Positions 9,041 through 46,279 are shown, counted from the first letter of the stretch. The stretch: DNA of 64,000 bases from Balneola sp. (GCA_002696035.1 NZQV01000004.1:1-64000), one strand, 5' to 3'. Notes: generated from the letters alone by a model not told the origin. Translations and numbers: made by a program.

Positions 9041-10876
9041 TTACATAAACCGATTATGAGCACCCTTTACATCTTGGCGGGTAAACGTAAAATTGAATTC
9101 AGTTCCATCCTCAGTTAAGATCTCTTTCTCGGCATTCAGCTGCCTGATAAGAGTTTCAACGATGGTCATGCCCATAGAGGGTTTATCATTGTTCAAAACG
9201 CTATCCGGTATACCAATTCCATTATCTTTTACAGAGGCTCGAAGCTTCTCACCATCTTCTTTAAACTTAACCCAGATCGCTCCTTCTCTATTATCCGGAA
9301 ACGCATGGCCGATAGCGTTAGATATGATCTCATTAAGAGCTAAGGCACAGGGAACCGCCTGATTTACATTTAGCTTGGTATTATCACAATCTATGTTGAT
9401 GGTGATATTTTCGGCATAATTATGTGATTTCCTGATCGACTCGATCAGCTCTTCGATATATTCTTTGAAGTTAAGATGACTAAGGGAGTGGGAGCGGTAT
9501 AATTTTTCATGGATCAGCGCCATCGATTTTATTCGGGAGACGCTGTTGCCCAGGATCTTGTTGAGGTGCTCGTTATCAGAATCAAATTGCTGAATTTGGA
9601 GTAGTCCCGAAATAATAGCCAGGTTATTTTTTACCCGGTGATGTACTTCCTGAAGAAGTACATCTTTCTCATCAAGGGCCTTATTCAGTTCATCCTCATA
9701 TTTCTTACGGGTAGAAATATCGCGGGTGTTGGTCTGAATCTCGACAATGGAGTTGTCTTCAGGGTTTACGGAAGAATGGCTTACGGATTCAACCCATTTA
9801 TATTCCCCCGATTTTGTTCTTTTACGGAAGATCGAGGTTACCGTATCGGTATTAACAGGACCTTCGTGCAGCACTTTATGTTCTTCATCAACTCTTTCAA
9901 CATCATCCGGGTGCATAAATTCAAATGCATTTCTGCCCATAAGTTCTTCGGACGTATACCCCATCAATTGTTTACAGGATGGTGTGATATATAAATAAGT
10001 GCCGTCGAGGGTATGCCGCGATATCATATCAGCAGAATTCTCTGTGACCAGTCGGAGGAGATTTTTCTCTTCTTTTAACTCTTTTTGAGTTTCAATGAGC
10101 TCGGTTACATCGTTTTGGATGCCGATAAAATGAGAAACTTTGCCATCCGTGTCTTCTACAGGTGCAATGGACAGTTCATTCCAAAACGGAGTACCGTCTT
10201 TCTTGTAATTGCGCAAGATCGACCGTCCTTTTTCGCCATTTCGGATAAGCTGACCTACCTCATCTACAGCATCTTGATCCCGATCATCATCCTGCAGAAA
10301 ACGGCAATTTTGTCCCAATATCTCATCCCGGGAATATCCGGTTAATTCTATAAAACCATCATTTGCAAAAATAAGGGGTTCATCCTCTGCCTGTGCATCT
10401 GAAATCACTATTCCTACATCCGTTGAGTTGACCGCTTTTTCGAGAATTCGAAGTTTCTCATTCTGCCGGGCAATTTTAAGGGAATTTTTCCGGCTGCGTA
10501 ACTGATTTTTGATACGCATGTTCAACATCTTGATGGGTACCGGAACTTCAATTACGTCGTCTACTTCATCCCATATTTTCGGGTCGTGTTTAAGTATTTT
10601 GCTGTTTTCTACCAGCAATACTATAGGCAGAAAGACCGGTAAGTCTCGTTTTTTGACATCAACTAATTCCTGCCGGTTGGCTTTATAGGAGTTCAGATCT
10701 GTGATACACAGGTCATATTTGAATTGGCTAAACGATGACGCTGTGTCATCAATTACATTAAAATGCGCAGGTATATTTTTCCTGATGAGCCTTCGGTCAG
10801 AAGCTCTTGACATAGAAAGCAAGATGGTAGGATTGCTACCGACAGCTTTTTGATCTATGTATATATATTCTAGCAT
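9041..10876 (-). CDS. LOV-PAS histidine kinase with N-terminal receiver-like domain (HisKA_2 type)
   Basis: 611 aa, no membrane segments. Residues 1-120 resemble a receiver domain with a possible Asp60 (CITDLNS), but the Lys-Pro end is lost (EVPVPI), so it looks like a pseudo-receiver. Residues about 142-262 are a LOV domain: GQNCRFLQ with the flavin-adduct Cys191, plus the FMN contacts Asn223, Asn233 (FWNELSI) and Gln254 (FIGIQND). A second PAS lies at about 275-390. The kinase core follows: EVHHRVKNNLAIISGLLQIQ (His412/413), the HisKA_2 family phosphoacceptor, then N-box EIISNAIGHAFP and G-box VKDNGIGIP. Blue light is the predicted input. It lies 28 bp downstream of the KaiC-like gene on the same strand. 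No response regulator is adjacent. Confidence 0.93.
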   Translation of the reverse strand: MLEYIYIDQKAVGSNPTILLSMSRASDRRLIRKNIPAHFNVIDDTASSFSQFKYDLCITDLNSYKANRQELVDVKKRDLPVFLPIVLLVENSKILKHDPKIWDEVDDVIEVPVPIKMLNMRIKNQLRSRKNSLKIARQNEKLRILEKAVNSTDVGIVISDAQAEDEPLIFANDGFIELTGYSRDEILGQNCRFLQDDDRDQDAVDEVGQLIRNGEKGRSILRNYKKDGTPFWNELSIAPVEDTDGKVSHFIGIQNDVTELIETQKELKEEKNLLRLVTENSADMISRHTLDGTYLYITPSCKQLMGYTSEELMGRNAFEFMHPDDVERVDEEHKVLHEGPVNTDTVTSIFRKRTKSGEYKWVESVSHSSVNPEDNSIVEIQTNTRDISTRKKYEDELNKALDEKDVLLQEVHHRVKNNLAIISGLLQIQQFDSDNEHLNKILGNSVSRIKSMALIHEKLYRSHSLSHLNFKEYIEELIESIRKSHNYAENITINIDCDNTKLNVNQAVPCALALNEIISNAIGHAFPDNREGAIWVKFKEDGEKLRASVKDNGIGIPDSVLNNDKPSMGMTIVETLIRQLNAEKEILTEDGTEFNFTFTRQDVKGAHNRFM

Positions 10877-10904
10877 TTATTGAGTTAAGATCTGTGTATA
10901 CAAA

Positions 10905-12338
10905 TTAAATTGACTGAGGATTGTTACTTAGAATTCCTTTGATTCCGGATAGTTGTTCTCCTACCTGAATCCCGTTTTTGGTGATATGATATCGGCGAAT
11001 GGATTTTTCAAAATCACTGAGTCTTTTTTTCAATACGCCGATCGCTTTTTGCAATTCTCCTCCCATTTCATAATACCGAAGGAAGATGATATTGTCGGCC
11101 AGGTAGCTGGCATGCATACTGGTGGCTTCCAGTGTTCCTGTGATACTTTTGGTTTCGTTGATCAGGAATGTGGTAACGCCCATATTTTGCAGATATACCG
11201 TTAAAGAATGCAATCGTTCCAGCGTGTTCTCTTCACGAACCGCCATTCCGTATCCTCCGATTGAGTCGATCATCACAAATTTGGTGTCGTTATTCTCCAC
11301 ATCGTTACGCACCATTTTTGAGAATTCATCCGGCGAATAGGAGAGCGGCTCTATGGATTCTATCTTTAGAAATCCCTTATCGATCATGTTTCTTATGGGC
11401 ACATTGATAGATTCTGAGCGCTTTAAGATCAACTCTTTTGATTCCTCAAAGGTATAGATGGCAGAGCGTTCCCCCCGGGAGGCAGCCTCTTTTATGAACT
11501 GCACACAAAGGTTGGTTTTACCTACTCCTGTAGGACCCGTAACCATAGTTGTGGTGCCTTTTTCAATTCCACCATGTAACAATTCGTCCAATTCGTTCAC
11601 TCCTGATGAAACAGCGCTGCTTATAAAATGTCTGCTGTATTTATTTGGGCGAAGGGCCGGGAATACTGAAAATCCTTCCCCGCTAATTTTAAATGCGTGA
11701 TTACCTGAACTGAAATCAGAACCCCTGTATTTTATGACCTTCAATGTTCTCCACGATTGTGAAAACTCAAGATTCACGATCCCATCAACCCAAAAGGTAG
11801 CTTCCTTTTCGGTAGACTTTTGAGACAGCTCAGAAGTCATAAGTAGAGTAGCTCCGCTATTGCAGATATACTTTATGAAAGAAAGCGCCATGTTTCGGGT
11901 TTGAAAGGGATCCTGATTCAAAAACTGGAACATCGTAATGGAATCGAGGAACACCCGCTTGGGCTTATATTTATCGACCGCTTCAATAATAGGTTGAAAG
12001 ATCGAAGAAGTTTCAACTTCTGATGTTGCAAAAACAGAATACGGTTCAAAACCCTCGGTAATATTCGTTTCCGGGTTCAGATCCAGGAAATGAACATCTT
12101 CCAGCGATATTCCCAGCTTATTCGCGTTGTTATTGACGTTGTCACTGCTTTCCCCAAAAGAAATATAAAGCGATGATTCCCCTTCCTTAACCCCTTGTTC
12201 CAGAAAATGATATCCAATAGTGGATTTTCCGGTTCCGGGGCCGCCTTGGATCAGATAAGATTGTTCGGTTATAAGTCCGCCATCTAATATTTCATCCAAG
12301 CCTGAGATGCCTGTCGAAATTTTTTGTCCTTCTTTCAT
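10905..12338 (-). CDS. KaiC-like double-domain RecA ATPase
   Basis: 477 aa with the two-domain CI-CII layout of KaiC. CI has Walker A GGPGTGKST (32-40) and Walker B VFLDS; the catalytic glutamate pair is reduced to Gly62-Glu63. CII has GPTGVGKT (268-275), a complete Glu298-Glu299 pair, and the C-terminal segment that aligns with the KaiC phosphorylation loop. By that alignment the Ser431 equivalent is Ser411, Thr432 is replaced by Tyr412, and Thr426 is kept as Thr406. No kaiA or kaiB is present. It is probably a KaiC2/3-type signalling ATPase co-transcribed with the LOV kinase; whether it autophosphorylates or keeps time is unknown. Confidence 0.92.
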   Translation of the reverse strand: MKEGQKISTGISGLDEILDGGLITEQSYLIQGGPGTGKSTIGYHFLEQGVKEGESSLYISFGESSDNVNNNANKLGISLEDVHFLDLNPETNITEGFEPYSVFATSEVETSSIFQPIIEAVDKYKPKRVFLDSITMFQFLNQDPFQTRNMALSFIKYICNSGATLLMTSELSQKSTEKEATFWVDGIVNLEFSQSWRTLKVIKYRGSDFSSGNHAFKISGEGFSVFPALRPNKYSRHFISSAVSSGVNELDELLHGGIEKGTTTMVTGPTGVGKTNLCVQFIKEAASRGERSAIYTFEESKELILKRSESINVPIRNMIDKGFLKIESIEPLSYSPDEFSKMVRNDVENNDTKFVMIDSIGGYGMAVREENTLERLHSLTVYLQNMGVTTFLINETKSITGTLEATSMHASYLADNIIFLRYYEMGGELQKAIGVLKKRLSDFEKSIRRYHITKNGIQVGEQLSGIKGILSNNPQSI

Positions 12339-12714
12339 AATGTGTACCGTATTTTATCGCACCTCATAGGTAATTGTTTGTGCGATCTCGTTTTGTCTTC
12401 AGTTAAAGATACCCTAAGTGCCTCTCATTCTAAATCGTATTAAACACCTAATTTTAAAGTAGGTATTTTCACCTATGCTTGATAGTTTAATGCATGTTGA
12501 AGCGATTTTGAGGGGATTTCAGCAATCTTGTTGTTTTAGACGAATTATGCGCCTGTGCATAAATGTGTATCAAAATCCAAGATTTATATAACAGAAGCAG
12601 GTTGCATGTATTCATAAAAGGCTCTGAAATATTGGTACATCAAAAGAGCCGGGATCCGGAAATCAGAAATTCTTCATTTGAATTATTCCTGAATGTGTTT
12701 ACTTTCGAAGTGAT
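12339..12714. other. Intergenic region upstream of the KaiC-like gene and the riboswitch
   Basis: AT-rich and without a gene. A GGCTCT...AGAGCC hairpin is present near 12622-12653. It must hold the leftward kaiC-like promoter and the rightward riboswitch promoter, but I cannot place either with confidence. Confidence 0.4.
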
Positions 12715-12915
12715 TTAATGATGGTCTCGGGCAGACGTAAAATCGCCCAGAGTTAAAAGGGAATCTCGTGAAAACCGAGAGCTGTTCCCGCAACTGTAAT
12801 CCGAGTTCGTTCCATTAAGCGGAACAAATCACTTGCAGCCTCACCTTTGCCACTGTTCTGAATGGAACGGGAAGGCGCTGCCAACGGAGAAGCCAGGAGA
12901 CCTGCCATCATTTAA
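12715..12915 (+). promoter_or_regulatory. Cobalamin (AdoCbl) riboswitch
   Basis: The conserved cobalamin riboswitch blocks occur in order: AAAAGGGAAT (about 12756), GAGCTGTTCCCGCAACTGTAA (12779-12798 region), GCCACTG (12849-12855), GGGAAGGC (12869-12876) and the B12-box AGCCAGGAGACCTGCC (12891-12906). A variable arm with paired GTTCCATT/AATGGAAC flanks lies in the middle. It ends about 50 bases before the BtuB-like start codon, so it probably represses translation or elongation of the B12-uptake genes when cobalamin is plentiful. Confidence 0.95.
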
Positions 12916-12960
12916 CCATCGCAAATTCTTCGGGTAAAAGAAGTTGCTGATAAAAATGAC

Positions 12961-14886
12961 ATGCGTTTTCTCCCTTTTATACTTTTTATATCTACCGTAT
13001 GGTATACCCATGCTTCAGCTCAGCAGCCAGCTGATACCCTCGATCTGGGTGAACTTCAGGTTCAGGCCTCGCGCATCTATGTTGCCGAGCGCTATCAGCC
13101 GGTCAGTATTTCCATGATCGATTCCAGCCGGATCCGGATCCATGCTGCAGGAAATCTCTCGGAGCTGCTGGCTAGCTTTGCACCGGTTCATGTTCGTGCA
13201 AACGGACCCGGCGGACTTGCAACCCTGTCGCAACGTGGCTATTCGCCTTCTCAAACGCAGGTGTTGTGGAATGGATTTCAGCTAAATCATGCCATGCTTG
13301 GACTGATGGACCTTTCGCTGATACCCTCTTTTGCTATTGAACAGATGAGCGTGGCTTCCGGGAATGGCAATACTTCTTTTGGGGATAAAGGAGGTGGTAC
13401 GGTTGCCATTCAGCTTCGCAAGCCCAGGAATGAGATCGGGTTTTCGCAAACCATCGGCGCTTTTGGGCAATCTATTTCAGAATCGTATGCAGGGGTGGAA
13501 TTCGGGAGCTGGGCGGTTGGCTTGGTCACAGGCATCGAAAGCTCGGAAAATGATTTTACCTATAGCCGACGGGAATTCAGCAACGAGGCCGGCGGCTTTG
13601 TGGAAGTTGACAAAAGACGCGCCAACAACGAAATGAAAGCCAAAACCGGCATCCTCTCCGTGAACTGGAATCAGGGAAGGAAGGAATTTTCGACCATGTT
13701 GTGGGCTCATGATATGGAGAATGAAGTCCCGGGAAGTATAAACGGGCTCACTCCGCAAGCTTATCAGGAAGACGCCTATTTGCGCTGGATGAGTCGCTAT
13801 TCCACCCATATCCAAGATCAAAAGATCACCACAAAATTGTATTTGAACCGGCAGCAACTCGATTTCATCAACCCGGCTGCAAACATCAATAGCCTGAGTA
13901 CAAGTTCTGCTCTTATTGGAGATGTTGAGTTACGGAGTTCCTTTTCCAGGAGTTTTCAGCTTATTTCGGCTTTGCAGTTTGGGCAGAATTGGGTAGAGGC
14001 CTCGGACTATTCCGGTTCCCCGCAAAGATCTCAGATCACCGCACAGCTCAATCCTGTCTGGCGGGTCCTGGATCCGGTGCACCTCTATGGTGGGCTCCGG
14101 CTGGATTATTACTCCGATTTTGGAGACGCCTATTCAACAAATGTTGGAATGAATGTTGAACTGTTGAGAGATCATCTGTTTCTGAAGGGACAGTTTAGCC
14201 GGAATTTTGTAGCACCGACGTTCAATGACCTATACTGGCCAGACCTGGGAAATCCGGACTTAGATCCCGAAACCAACCTGAAGTTTGAAGCCGGAATTCT
14301 ATTTGAGGAAAGAATAGAATCCATCCAAAATCAATTTGAGGTGACTTATTATGATGGCTGGGTAAAAGATGGCATTAGATGGCTGCCGGGCAATGATGGA
14401 CGTTCGAGGCCTGTGAACCTGGAAGAACTCCGGTTGCAGGGATTTGAGATCAGGGAAGAATTCCGCGTAGAATTGGGACAGTTACACCTTGATCTGCAGG
14501 GCATGTTATTTCATTCGCTGGCTGAGATCACGATGCCCCGATTTGAGGGCGATCGCGCTGTAGGCAAACAACTTCGTTACACGCCCAAGTGGCAACTCAA
14601 GAGCTCCGCCATTTTTGGATGGAAGGGGTTGAATTCCATGTTTACCTACAATTTTACGGATGAACGCTTTTCCACGGCCGACCATAGCAGTCCTTTTGAT
14701 CCGCTGCCATCCTACCAAACATCAAGCTGGAGTGGATCCTATCAATTCCGGTTAAATCAATTTCGGTTCACCCCACAATTTACTGTTCGAAACCTTTTTG
14801 ACGAATCCTATTCCGTGATAAGAGACTATCCCATGCCCGGACGTTCCTGGCAAGCAAGAATAACCATTCAATATAAATTCAACTGA
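12961..14886 (+). CDS. btuB: TonB-dependent receptor, BtuB-like (cobalamin uptake)
   Basis: 641 aa with a signal peptide (cleavage after THASA). The plug domain spans about residues 30-150 (LGELQVQASRI TonB-box region; LSELLASFAPVHVRANGPGG; FGDKGGGTVAIQLRKP), followed by a 22-strand-type barrel ending FTVRNLFDESYSVIRDYPMPGR...IQYKFN. The gene sits directly behind a cobalamin riboswitch and is followed after 4 bp by a BtuG-like surface propeller, so the substrate is most likely B12 or another corrinoid. The family assignment is firm; the ligand is inferred from context. Confidence 0.93.
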   Translation: MRFLPFILFISTVWYTHASAQQPADTLDLGELQVQASRIYVAERYQPVSISMIDSSRIRIHAAGNLSELLASFAPVHVRANGPGGLATLSQRGYSPSQTQVLWNGFQLNHAMLGLMDLSLIPSFAIEQMSVASGNGNTSFGDKGGGTVAIQLRKPRNEIGFSQTIGAFGQSISESYAGVEFGSWAVGLVTGIESSENDFTYSRREFSNEAGGFVEVDKRRANNEMKAKTGILSVNWNQGRKEFSTMLWAHDMENEVPGSINGLTPQAYQEDAYLRWMSRYSTHIQDQKITTKLYLNRQQLDFINPAANINSLSTSSALIGDVELRSSFSRSFQLISALQFGQNWVEASDYSGSPQRSQITAQLNPVWRVLDPVHLYGGLRLDYYSDFGDAYSTNVGMNVELLRDHLFLKGQFSRNFVAPTFNDLYWPDLGNPDLDPETNLKFEAGILFEERIESIQNQFEVTYYDGWVKDGIRWLPGNDGRSRPVNLEELRLQGFEIREEFRVELGQLHLDLQGMLFHSLAEITMPRFEGDRAVGKQLRYTPKWQLKSSAIFGWKGLNSMFTYNFTDERFSTADHSSPFDPLPSYQTSSWSGSYQFRLNQFRFTPQFTVRNLFDESYSVIRDYPMPGRSWQARITIQYKFN

Positions 14887-16973: not shown

Positions 16974-19900
16974 ATGAAATTTTCTCGCTTCTACACCAAA
17001 TCAGAATGGAAAACACCATTCGACAAAATCGAATTTGCAACGCGCACCTCTGAGATCAAAAACCCTGACGGTTCCCAGGTATTCCACATGGAAAACGTGG
17101 TGGTTCCTGAAGACTGGAGTCAGGTTTCTACAGATGTAATTGCACAAAAATATTTTCGCAAAGCCGGGGTTCCTGCGAAACTTAAAAAGGTCAAAGAGAA
17201 AGGCGTACCGAAATGGTTACAGCGTTCTGTGCCTGATGAAAAAGCACTGAAGGAATTACCAGAAGAAGAGCGTTATTCTCATGAAATTGATAGCAAGCAA
17301 GTCTTTCACCGATTGGCGGGTTGTTGGACTTACTGGGGCTGGAAGCATGACTATTTTGACAGCGAGGATGATGCAAAAGTTTTTTACTCTGAATTAGCAT
17401 ATATGCTGGCTACACAGATGGCCGCACCAAACAGCCCGCAGTGGTTTAACACGGGGCTACATTGGGCCTATGGGATCAATGGTCCGTCGCAGGGACATTA
17501 TTATGTAGACGGCAAAACCGGAGAATTGAAGCGATCCGAAGATGCTTATACGCATCCGCAGCCACACGCCTGCTTCATCCAGAGTGTGGATGACGACCTT
17601 GTGAATGAAGGCGGTATCATGGATCTGTGGACTCGTGAAGCCCGGCTCTTTAAATACGGATCTGGAACCGGAAGTAATTTCTCCAAGATCCGCGGATCTA
17701 ATGAACCACTAAGCGGTGGAGGAAGAAGTTCCGGCCTGATGAGCTTTCTTAAAATTGGTGACCGGGCAGCCGGCGCCATAAAATCAGGTGGAACTACCCG
17801 GAGAGCTGCCAAGATGGTAACTCTTGATCTGGATCATCCTGATATTGAAGAATACATCAACTGGAAAGTCCGCGAAGAGCAGAAAGTAGCGGCATTGGTA
17901 GCCGGATCAAAAACGGTTCAGAAACGACTGAAGAACATCATTCAGTTATGCCATACACCGGTTGAAATTGAAGGTCGTACTTTTAACGGAGCGATGAGTC
18001 GGGATCCGCTTAAAAATAAAAAGCTGGCTGAAGAGATCCGTAAGGCAAAAAGAGATTCAGTGCCCCTTAATTACATAGAGCGTGTTATTCAGCTTGCAGC
18101 CCAGGGATTCACCGATCTGGAATTTGATGCCTATGACACTGACTGGAATTCCGAAGCCTACGCAACAGTAAGCGGTCAGAATTCGAACAACTCTGTTCGC
18201 GTTCCGAATTCCTTTATGAAAGCAGTGAAGGAAGACAGTGACTGGCATCTGTATGGCCGGGTTGAGAAGAAAAAAGCGGCAAAAGAAGGCCGCGAACCCA
18301 AGCCCATGGAATCTATGAAAGCCCGTGATCTGTGGGATGACATTGCTTATGCAGCATGGTCGTGTGCAGATCCCGGAACACAGTATCATGACACCATCAA
18401 CGAGTGGCATACTTGCCCTGAAGATGGTCCGATCAACGCAAGTAACCCTTGCTCTGAGTACATGTTCCTCGACAACACGGCTTGTAACCTTGCTTCCCTG
18501 AATCTGATGAAGTACTTCAAAGGGAATGGGGATTACAAGAAGTTTGATATCGAATCTCTGGAGTATGCTTCCCGGATCTGGACGGTGGTTCTTGAGATCT
18601 CCGTTCTGATGGCACAGTTCCCTTCAAAAGAAATTGCAGATCTTTCCTACAAATTCAGAACGCTGGGGCTTGGCTATGCCAACATCGGTGCTGCGCTAAT
18701 GGTGCAGGGACTTCCTTACGACAGCGAAGAAGGAGCAAGTGTGGCCGGAGCCATTACCGCAACGATGCATATGACCTCTTATGCCACATCTGCTGAAATG
18801 GCCAAAGAACTCGGAACCTTTGAAGGGTACGAGCGCAATCAGGAACATATGCTGAAGGTGATCCGAAACCACCGACGAGCAGCTTATAATGCTGATCCTG
18901 AGGAGTACGAAGGACTGACTGTGAAGCCGATGGGAATCGATGCTTCTATCTGTCCGGATTATCTGGTGAAAGCAGCCCAAAAAGCATCAGACAAAGCACT
19001 TAAAAAAGGCGAAAAACACGGATACCGAAATGCACAGGTAACTGTACTTGCCCCGACCGGAACCATTGGTTTGGTGATGGATTGCGATACTACCGGAATT
19101 GAGCCTGATTTTGCGCTGGTGAAATTCAAGAAATTAGCTGGTGGCGGATACTTCAAGATCATTAATCAAGCAGTACCTAAAGCGCTGAAGAACCTCGGTT
19201 ATTCCAAGAAGGAATCTCAGGAGATCATCGATTACGCTAAAGGAACAGGCTCGCTGGAAGGTTGTCCACACATCAACCCGGAAGTTCTGATGGAAAAAGG
19301 CTTCACCAAAGAAAAAATTGAAGCAGTAAACCAGGCACTGCCCGGAAGCTTCGATATCAAGTTTGCTTTCAATCAGTGGACGCTTGGTGAGGATTTTTGC
19401 AAGGATGTGCTGGAGATCTCCGAAGAGCAGCTCAACGACATGAATTTCGACATGCTGCGATTCCTTGGATTCAGTAATGAGCAGATTCAGGAAGCCAATG
19501 ATTACGTTTGTGGAACAATGACGGTGGAAGGCGCTCCGCACCTGAAAGAAGAAGATTACGCCGTATTTGATTGTGCCAGCCGTTGCGGACGAATTGGAAC
19601 ACGTTTCATTTCGGCCAAAGGACACATTCGCATGATGGCCGCTGCACAGCCGTTCTTGTCCGGCGCGATCTCCAAAACCATCAACCTCCCTAACGAAGCG
19701 ACTATCGAAGACATGAAAGACGCTTACATGGATTCATGGGAGATGATGTTGAAAGCCAACGCTCTCTATCGTGATGGTTCCAAATTGAGTCAGCCGCTGA
19801 ATTCCATGGCTGATGTACTGGAAGAGATCGTGGATGAGGAAGATGAAGAATCTGTTGATGCAGAAACGTCACAAGCACAGGATAAAGTGCTTGAAGTGGC

Positions 19901-20645
19901 TGAGCGCATCATTCATAAATATGTAGCACGACGTCAGCGACTACCATTCCGTCGCGAAGGATATACGCAAAAAGTGAAGATAGGTGGACAGAGTGTCTAT
20001 CTCAGAACGGGTGAATATGAAAACGGTCAGCTGGGTGAGATCTTTATTGATATGCACCGCGAAGGCGCCGCTTTCCGAAGCCTTTTGAACTGCTTTGCGA
20101 TCTCAATTTCACTTGGGTTGCAGCATGGCGTTCCACTGGAAGAATTTGTGGATGCCTTTACCTTCACCAAGTTTGAGCCAAGCGGCATGGTAAACGGAAA
20201 CCCACATGTGAAAATGAGTACATCTGTTATCGATTACATCTTCCGCGAGCTGGCGGTGACCTACCTCGGAAGAGAAGACCTGGCACATGTGCCGGCAGAT
20301 CAGATCGAATCTCGTAATTTACGTCCTACAGCAGATGCTAACCCGGATGTAGACAGCGAGGAATTTAACACAGATGCAAGAAGCACTTCGGCGAATGCAA
20401 CACCAGACACAGCAGAGTCTGAAGTAGCACCTTCGATGGCAGATCCATCACAGACGGCCGCCGAAAACCCAACAGCTACCCAACAAAAAGCGGTGAAGTC
20501 AGACAGTTACGAAAGTGACTACGACAAAGCCAAGCAAATGGGCTACACCGGCGAAGCCTGCCCCGAATGCGGCAGCATGACCATGGTGAGAAATGGAACA
20601 TGCATGAAGTGCATTACCTGCGGCTCTACTACAGGATGTAGTTAA
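16974..20645 (+). CDS. nrdJ: Adenosylcobalamin-dependent (class II) ribonucleoside-diphosphate reductase
   Basis: 1223 aa, the long NrdJ form. It reduces ribonucleotides to deoxyribonucleotides using a radical generated from AdoCbl, without oxygen dependence. Visible signatures include [11 protein letters not shown], the [20 protein letters not shown] active-site segment (the Cys and Glu of the N-x-C-x-E motif), [16 protein letters not shown], and a C-terminal zinc-ribbon-like tail with CPECG and [13 protein letters not shown] that probably shuttles reducing equivalents. An unconserved acidic/Thr-rich linker (about 1110-1190) precedes the tail. It lies directly downstream of the B12-uptake operon but after its own terminator and a 670-bp regulatory region. 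Confidence 0.97.
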
Positions 20646-45683: not shown

Positions 45684-45777
45684 GCTATGTGTTGAGGTCG
45701 GAATTAAAATTCATATCAAAGGTAAGAAGGATTGAAATTCAATGATATAAAAGATCCATTGCATTCGTGTGCAAATG

Positions 45778-45797
45778 GTGTGTATATTTATACACAC
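45778..45797 (+). promoter_or_regulatory. Palindromic operator upstream of the merC-like/RHH operon
   Basis: GTGTGTATA-TT-TATACACAC is a perfect 9-bp inverted repeat. It covers a possible -10 (TATATT, 45783-45788) located 18 bp after TTGCAT (45759-45764), which is a repressor position. The regulator may be the ribbon-helix-helix protein encoded at 46266. Confidence 0.6.
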
Positions 45798-45823
45798 TAA
45801 AATTCACACCACACTTTAATAAT

Positions 45824-46279
45824 TTGTCAGAGAAAAATATTTCGATTTCAGTTATATGGGATAAACTGGGATTGAGCTTATCTGCCCTTTGTGCCATTCA
45901 TTGCTTGTTTGTGCCAGTAGTGATTGCCGTGCTGCCTTTGAGTCCTGCCGCATTAGCTGTGGAACATTGGCTTCACCCCATTTTTGCGATATTGATCGCG
46001 CCAACTATTTTTTATGCCGTCCGTCGCAGTCATTTTAACAAGCGAATTGTTTGGTTCTTATCGTCCGGATTTGCTCTTATAATTGCCGGATGGCTGATCG
46101 GTGATTATGTGTTGGGAGAGGTTTTTGAGACGGTTGCCACTCTTGTTGGGAGCATACTTTTGATTGCCGGACACTGGTACAATTATCGTCATCACCAAAC
46201 GTGCAGCAACGATACTCATCACCATCATCCACTCGAAGAAACCTATTTCAAGAAGGAGGGAGCGCATGAAACGACTTAA
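45824..46279 (+). CDS. MerC-domain membrane protein
   Basis: About 151 aa from TTG 45824. The open frame reaches a GTG at 45767, but that would make the operator part of the coding sequence, and no ATG is available. Four TM helices. The MerC metal-binding dicysteine is in SALCAIHCLFVP, and the C-terminus is His/Cys-rich (HHQTCSNDTHHHH). MerC proteins carry Hg2+ or other soft metals; without merA here another metal is likelier. Overlaps the next gene by 14 bp. Confidence 0.78.
   Translation: MSEKNISISVIWDKLGLSLSALCAIHCLFVPVVIAVLPLSPAALAVEHWLHPIFAILIAPTIFYAVRRSHFNKRIVWFLSSGFALIIAGWLIGDYVLGEVFETVATLVGSILLIAGHWYNYRHHQTCSNDTHHHHPLEETYFKKEGAHETT

Follow-up and report, generated by a model that had tools for sequence, protein, structure and literature searches.

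A kaiC-like gene and a LOV histidine kinase gene lie side by side

We analyzed a stretch of 64,000 nucleotides of DNA from Balneola sp. (GCA_002696035.1 NZQV01000004.1:1-64000), here called the window. It carries a kaiC-like gene followed by a gene for a soluble histidine kinase (Table 1). The earlier note had reported two adjacent genes on one strand, 28 bp apart, and both open reading frames are confirmed. The 28-bp gap contains no terminator-like site, and co-transcription of kaiC and the kinase gene is therefore likely, judging from the layout of the locus. The host genome is 3.97 Mb in size and 97% complete. Its family-level relatives include contigs labeled Balneolaceae and Aliifodinibius.

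Table 1. Genes, domains, and key residues of the kaiC-kinase locus (positions counted from the first letter of the window).
Feature	Position	Strand	Description
kaiC-like double ATPase gene	10905..12338	-	477 aa; S-Y (ASYLADNI) KaiC subfamily
CI domain	11655..12320	-	Intact Walker A (G33-K38-S39); G62/E63 in place of the catalytic Glu pair
CII domain	10953..11612	-	Walker A K274, E298/E299; T406/S411/Y412 correspond to KaiC T426/S431/T432; no KaiA-binding tail past the A-loop equivalent
Spacer, kaiC stop to kinase start	10877..10904	-	28 bp
Soluble histidine kinase gene	9041..10876	-	611 aa; pseudo-receiver, LOV, PAS, HisKA_2, HATPase
N-terminal pseudo-receiver, residues 1-145	10442..10876	-	Receiver fold without the acidic pair and Lys but with Asp60; terminal long helix into LOV
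LOV domain, residues 145-262	10091..10444	-	C191, N223, N233, Q254
Second PAS domain, ~residues 275-390	9707..10054	-	Without the LOV cysteine (GRNAFEF)
HisKA_2 dimerization/phospho-acceptor domain, residues 410-484	9425..9649	-	H413 aligns with the single His of EL346 EVQHRVKNH
HATPase catalytic domain, ~residues 507-600	9077..9358	-	DNGIGIP G-box

The ATPase belongs to a distinct KaiC subfamily

A domain search finds two PF06745 domains in the 477-aa product, and its closest matches in the PDB are all KaiC proteins (E = 5e-64), in keeping with the double KaiC-type ATPase described before. Its identity to clock KaiC is 30-32%. The Walker A lysines are present in both domains (K38 in CI and K274 in CII). 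Alignment also bears out the finer points of the earlier reading: CII retains its Glu pair (E298/E299) and Ser411, Tyr412 stands in place of Thr432, and the CI pair is weakened to G62/E63 where KaiC has EE. The chain ends 5-9 residues past the ILSG of the A-loop equivalent, and the C-terminal KaiA-binding tail seen in clock KaiC is absent from the window protein.

These substitutions are widely shared. The first CI Glu is lost in 11/11 Balneolaceae proteins and in most of a wider set of relatives, while E63 is kept in all. Tyr occupies the T432 position in 11/11 Balneolaceae proteins and 70/73 wider relatives, and Ser occupies the 431 position in 11/11 and 72/73, respectively. G62 and Y412 are near-fixed traits of this KaiC subfamily, not quirks of the window protein. 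In a phylogenetic tree, a long, fully supported branch parts the subfamily from clock KaiC, with the Balneolaceae proteins forming one clade (the program flagged long branches).

The kinase carries a complete LOV domain

The LOV region (~residues 145-278) is matched by PAS_9 and by the NCBIfam blue-light-kinase and YtvA models, the latter two scoring below their whole-protein cut-offs because the kinase architecture differs. Top PDB matches of this region are LOV proteins, and EL346 (4r3a) is the best match for the kinase (E = 8e-44). The adduct motif G188-Q-N-C191-R-F-L-Q195, together with N223, N233, and Q254, makes up the full diagnostic LOV set, with the residue numbers given in the earlier note. 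A codon pattern for GxNCRFLQ occurs once genome-wide, inside this kinase; a reversed control pattern does not occur. The kinase core is of the HisKA_2 kind, with a phospho-acceptor His and an ATP-binding domain.

Between the window kinase and distant members, identity is 53% across LOV, 24-36% across the pseudo-receiver, and 18-47% across the second PAS domain. LOV is thus better conserved than its neighboring domains, as expected if its photochemistry is under selection. Judged by its residues, the LOV domain should be functional, and no other sensor domain in the kinase is as well conserved. The N-terminal pseudo-receiver of ~140 aa and the second PAS domain had both been missed earlier.

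The kaiC-kinase pair is conserved

At a KaiC threshold of E < 1e-30, 13 of the 129 genomes of the order have a match. Twelve of these 13, the window genome included, carry orthologs with 55-80% identity. In all 12 Balneolaceae kaiC ortholog loci, a PAS-HisKA_2 kinase gene follows on the same strand after 2-28 bp. The earlier note had named a lack of conserved linkage as grounds for refutation; the linkage is conserved in every ortholog. Most Balneolaceae lack both genes. The pair is thus patchy in the family, yet its members are retained or lost jointly, with two exceptions. One genome from the genus of the window genome (G028) has an intact LOV kinase, 69% identical, beside an in-frame 127-codon kaiC remnant of three pieces, and a second relative (G046) lacks kaiC but encodes a pseudo-receiver kinase. 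Given these exceptions, the kinase may also act independently of KaiC. Sampling 394 genomes across the phylum added just one further, distant KaiC, with no such kinase adjoining.

An alignment-query scan, unlike a single-protein-query scan, which gave no matches, recovered 75 wider loci from other phyla (cyanobacteria, Chloroflexota, deltaproteobacteria, and archaea) with KaiC proteins 46-52% identical. We find a pseudo-receiver protein directly downstream of kaiC, or one small gene away, at 71/75 of these loci, a figure that describes this KaiC subfamily and not all KaiC because the loci were picked by similarity to Balneolaceae KaiC. The two genes are directly adjacent at 31 loci, and at 37 an extra stand-alone ORF of ~120 aa lies between them. 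Most of these intervening ORFs are receiver-like; the one at locus L047 is dubious and unlike a receiver. The outputs that follow the pseudo-receiver are HisKA (45 loci) and GGDEF and/or HD-GYP (12 loci), the remainder having no motif assignment. Bacteroidota, cyanobacteria, Chloroflexota, and archaea thus share the arrangement, with varying outputs.

Given linkage at 12/12 Balneolaceae and 71/75 wider loci, we reject a chance neighborhood of kaiC and kinase. The two neighbors could be functionally independent all the same, that is, an ordinary blue-light HisKA_2 kinase next to a KaiC with another role, in a neighborhood that was simply inherited. The intact LOV kinase beside a decayed kaiC and the pseudo-receiver kinase without kaiC are consistent with such independence, as are unlinked LOV-HisKA_2 kinases of ~355 aa in five relatives. 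We nevertheless regard it as unlikely, since the arrangement is kept across such distant phyla despite changing outputs, most Balneolaceae lack the two genes together, and the spacing is no more than 2-28 bp.

A pseudo-receiver is the constant partner

The N-terminal ~140 residues of this kinase have no Pfam match and are conserved in 12/12 Balneolaceae kinases. An AlphaFold2 model of this N-terminal domain shows an alternating alpha/beta fold (pLDDT 85.8, pTM 0.80) whose long end helix enters LOV. The top Foldseek matches of the model are receivers (DctD, RR468, KdpE, and others). A KaiB/SasA-like (thioredoxin-type) domain, as hinted in PMC3164672, is unsupported, the matches being essentially all receivers. 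Across 83 sequences, hydrophobic residues replace the acidic pair, the Lys is kept in ~17%, and an Asp at position 60 in 84%. A receiver fold that has lost its Mg-binding acidic pair and mostly its Lys, and has largely kept its Asp, identifies the domain as a pseudo-receiver.

A profile of this domain gives 14 strong matches (E < 1e-38) among the 129 genomes of the order. Twelve adjoin kaiC, one is a second copy in the same locus, and one adjoins the kaiC remnant. The constant partner of this KaiC subfamily is the pseudo-receiver domain, not LOV.

The domain could in principle be a target of phosphorylation instead of an anchor. Here, the kinase (or KaiC) would phosphorylate Asp60 in a hybrid phosphorelay with KaiC as the downstream effector. 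All 12 Balneolaceae kinases have Asp60, which agrees with this proposal, as does the frequency of this Asp in the wider set. However, the acidic pair and Lys needed for receiver chemistry are gone in most members, and the Asp itself is missing in 16% of sequences, making a phosphorylated receiver highly improbable.

LOV is a variable part of the pair

The strict LOV motif is present in 8/12 KaiC-linked Balneolaceae kinases, as well as in the kinase beside the decayed kaiC. Four partner kinases (G009, G012, G019, and G037) lack the LOV Cys, and their pseudo-receivers lead straight into other PAS domains. None of the 71 pseudo-receiver partners outside Balneolaceae has the motif. We therefore reject LOV as the essence of the pair. 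Light sensing joined to a KaiC relative, as the earlier note proposed, holds to the extent that the pair is conserved and its LOV domain intact; LOV is not the element that binds the two genes together, since the pseudo-receiver is constant and LOV is not.

Across the order, we detected 18 LOV motif sites, spread over 17 genomes; this kinase accounts for half of the sites. The motif occurs in 9/12 genomes with a kaiC ortholog versus 8/117 others (Fisher test, P = 2e-7), a comparison uncorrected for phylogeny, in which the linked copies drive the difference. In a tree of the nine KaiC-linked sites and seven of the nine unlinked sites (those that could be aligned), the KaiC-linked LOVs cluster apart from the unlinked ones (support 78/89; 82% of bootstraps). 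LOV probably entered the Balneolaceae kinase once and was later lost in some lineages, which is the economical history. That LOV was lost repeatedly while the remainder was kept indicates that light input is modular.

KaiA and KaiB are absent, and a timer is poorly supported

We found no match to KaiA (PF07688) or KaiB (PF07689) in the 97%-complete window genome, as the earlier note had supposed from the window; the Synechococcus elongatus control was positive for both and was the only positive for KaiA. KaiB was also absent from all 12 genomes that carry the module. Among the 129 genomes of the order, KaiB occurs only in three (G050, G057, and G093), none of which has the kaiC-kinase module. 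The first of these encodes another type of KaiC, with an S-S site and 28% identity to the window KaiC, adjoining kaiB genes and without an adjacent kinase. Its gene is of the KaiB2/KaiC2 type reported in Bacteroidetes (PMC5520375). The window system resembles the KaiB2-KaiC2 systems of Bacteroidota in having a KaiC-like protein in the same phylum, but it differs in lacking kaiB, in having an S-Y rather than an SS-type KaiC, and in its adjacent kinase.

These results bear on whether the pair could be a light-set timer, in which KaiC acts as a slow ATPase/phosphorylation hourglass or an oscillator without KaiA and KaiB, with the LOV kinase both setting the phase of KaiC and serving as its readout. 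Several features are compatible with timing: the homology to KaiC, the conserved Ser at position 431, the intact CII Glu pair, and the direct coupling to a photoreceptor. An hourglass has been suggested for the Ramlibacter pair, which likewise lacks kaiAB (PMC3164672), and a lone Ser431 site is reportedly enough for a temperature-compensated period in cyanobacterial KaiC (as cited in PMC11832031). Set against these are the missing KaiA and KaiB, the replacement of T432 by Tyr, the loss of the first CI catalytic Glu throughout Balneolaceae and most of the wider family, and the absent KaiA-binding tail. In addition, a light sensor is missing from most relatives of the module, and some Balneolaceae keep kaiC without LOV. 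We thus think a timer of this kind quite improbable. One form of it, a KaiA- and KaiB-independent KaiC timer both set and read by one docked LOV kinase, which would make a minimal two-protein, light-set hourglass or clock in non-phototrophic Balneolaceae, seems very doubtful. A clock in the Kai sense is unsupported, there being no KaiA or KaiB, an S-Y site, and no tail. Light entrainment, which the earlier note put forward alongside light gating, implies a timer and accordingly finds no supporting evidence, and the S-Y site, the lost CI Glu, and the missing tail speak against it.

A model for the pair

On balance, the pair probably forms a sensor-kinase module with KaiC as its scaffold and blue light as one interchangeable input. 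The KaiC-like nucleotide-binding sites are intact in both rings, which supports this reading at the level of sequence. We propose, from genomic co-occurrence, that the pseudo-receiver would dock the soluble kinase on the KaiC ring, where the nucleotide or phosphorylation state of KaiC (S411, possibly T406) could bias the kinase. Blue light would form an adduct between C191 and flavin and alter kinase activity through the helical linkers. The output would then be phosphotransfer, with H413 as the donor and, as the acceptor, a response regulator whose gene lies elsewhere in the window genome. Such a module would combine light with an energy or metabolic state that KaiC senses. None of the evidence calls for an ability to keep time.

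HisKA_2 LOV kinases, EL346 among them, include both light-activated and dark-activated examples (PMC10359499), and the sign of the light effect is therefore not predictable. No cognate response regulator is encoded adjoining the pair in the window genome. A candidate output in six relatives is an atypical NarL-type regulator, encoded upstream of kaiC and on its strand. No close copy of this regulator exists in the window genome, where the best match is an ordinary receiver adjoining another kinase.

Relation to known systems

A kaiC-plus-kinase pair without kaiA or kaiB is already known (PMC3164672); what is new here is the light sensor built into the kinase. That 2011 study described kaiC genes with SY, TY, or SF sites that lack kaiA and kaiB and systematically precede the gene of a specific kinase. 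These kinases share a conserved, receiver-like domain at the N terminus, which the study proposed as a KaiC-interacting module. The same study described a group in which kaiC is followed by a receiver gene. In Ramlibacter tataouinensis, co-transcription of kaiC and kinase was shown by RT-PCR (PMC3164672), and the blue-light kinase is a separate gene. The window pair shares with this kaiC-Nt_HK pair (the "dark-blue" kaiC context of PMC3164672) the absence of kaiA and kaiB, the SY-type phosphosite, the kinase immediately downstream, and the receiver-like N-terminal domain; the likeness to the Ramlibacter Rta_04340 kinase rests on the published description. It differs in having a built-in LOV and a HisKA_2 rather than a HisKA core. 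In addition, PMC3164672 compared the N-terminal domain both with a receiver and with SasA/KaiB, whereas our model has a receiver fold, with no KaiB or SasA among the matches listed. Since the testable defining features are present save for the HisKA_2 core and built-in LOV, we consider the window pair a variant of that module. The literature searched, which lacked most subscription papers, contains no description of a LOV-bearing KaiC-linked kinase or of a LOV/HisKA_2 version.

The LOV HWE/HisKA_2 kinases EL346, LovK, and Brucella LOV-HK (PMC10359499) likewise have an NCRFLQ LOV feeding a HisKA_2 core. They lack an N-terminal pseudo-receiver and a kaiC partner, whereas the window LOV sits between a pseudo-receiver and a second PAS domain.

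With the cyanobacterial KaiABC system and its kinases SasA and CikA, the window pair shares a double-domain KaiC ATPase and, presumably, a KaiC-coupled kinase. It differs in its low identity (30-32%), in the lack of KaiA and KaiB, in S-Y for S-T, in CI GE for EE, and in the missing tail. CikA and KaiA also carry pseudo-receivers (PMC12632262), although that of CikA binds KaiB, which is absent from the window genome. KaiC hubs have also been described in archaea (Makarova 2017, as relayed by PMC5847659). The constancy of the pseudo-receiver as a partner, in parallel with those of KaiA and CikA, suggests that the use of dead receivers to couple KaiC-based ATPases to signaling predates the cyanobacterial clock and extends beyond it.

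The NarL/LuxR-type response regulators encoded upstream of kaiC, the KaiC-like double ATPase gene, in six relatives are orthologous, with 47-80% identity. Their receivers are missing the acidic pair (IAVHH, IAIEY, IAEHH, and IAVYY). Judged by sequence, this is an atypical regulator, and it is a candidate output of the kaiC-kinase pair in these relatives. A further small receiver-like ORF lies 5' of kaiC in three of the six loci.

Different outputs are found in some other phyla, where the KaiC-linked pseudo-receiver (a degenerate receiver domain) is fused to HD-GYP and/or GGDEF rather than to a kinase (loci L058, L059, and L060). These fusions tie this KaiC subfamily to cyclic-di-GMP signalling. 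Additional kinases also occur. One, a HisKA_2 kinase with a propeller, is encoded immediately after the LOV kinase in genome G025, and there is no such kinase at the corresponding place in the window genome. At the G012 locus, another shares the locus with the kaiC-linked pseudo-receiver kinase, which suggests duplication or partner exchange.

In the kaiC remnant of G028, residues 1-41 are joined to a CII P-loop fragment and to the last 67 residues of the protein, and the adjoining LOV kinase is intact. The remnant probably reflects decay, although it may instead be an assembly error.

Features at kaiC loci and in the window
Feature	Locus	Position	Strand	Remark
NarL/LuxR-type regulator	L020	5454-6098		upstream of kaiC
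NarL/LuxR-type regulator	L021	5487-6119		upstream of kaiC
NarL/LuxR-type regulator	L022	8742-9380		upstream of kaiC
NarL/LuxR-type regulator	L024	5630-6274		upstream of kaiC
NarL/LuxR-type regulator	L025	8755-9393		upstream of kaiC
NarL/LuxR-type regulator	L026	5092-5730		upstream of kaiC
Second HisKA_2 kinase	L019	1804-4875		G025; Reg_prop/Y_Y_Y propeller
Second pseudo-receiver kinase	L025	214-3201		G012; 995 aa
kaiC remnant	L111	10092-10514		G028, same genus as window genome; 127 codons, in frame
Cobalamin riboswitch	window	12705-12923	+	Rfam RF00174, 106.5 bits
BtuB-like TonB receptor gene	window	12961-14886	+	
Class II ribonucleotide reductase gene	window	16974-20645		B12-dependent
MerC-like mercury resistance protein gene	window	45767-46279	+	

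In the window, the cobalamin riboswitch lies immediately 5' of the BtuB-like receptor gene; both are divergent from kaiC and are followed by the ribonucleotide reductase gene. Elsewhere in the window, the MerC-like gene overlaps a gene for a conserved 143-aa protein of no known function, and several relatives carry homologues of these two genes flanking their kaiC locus.
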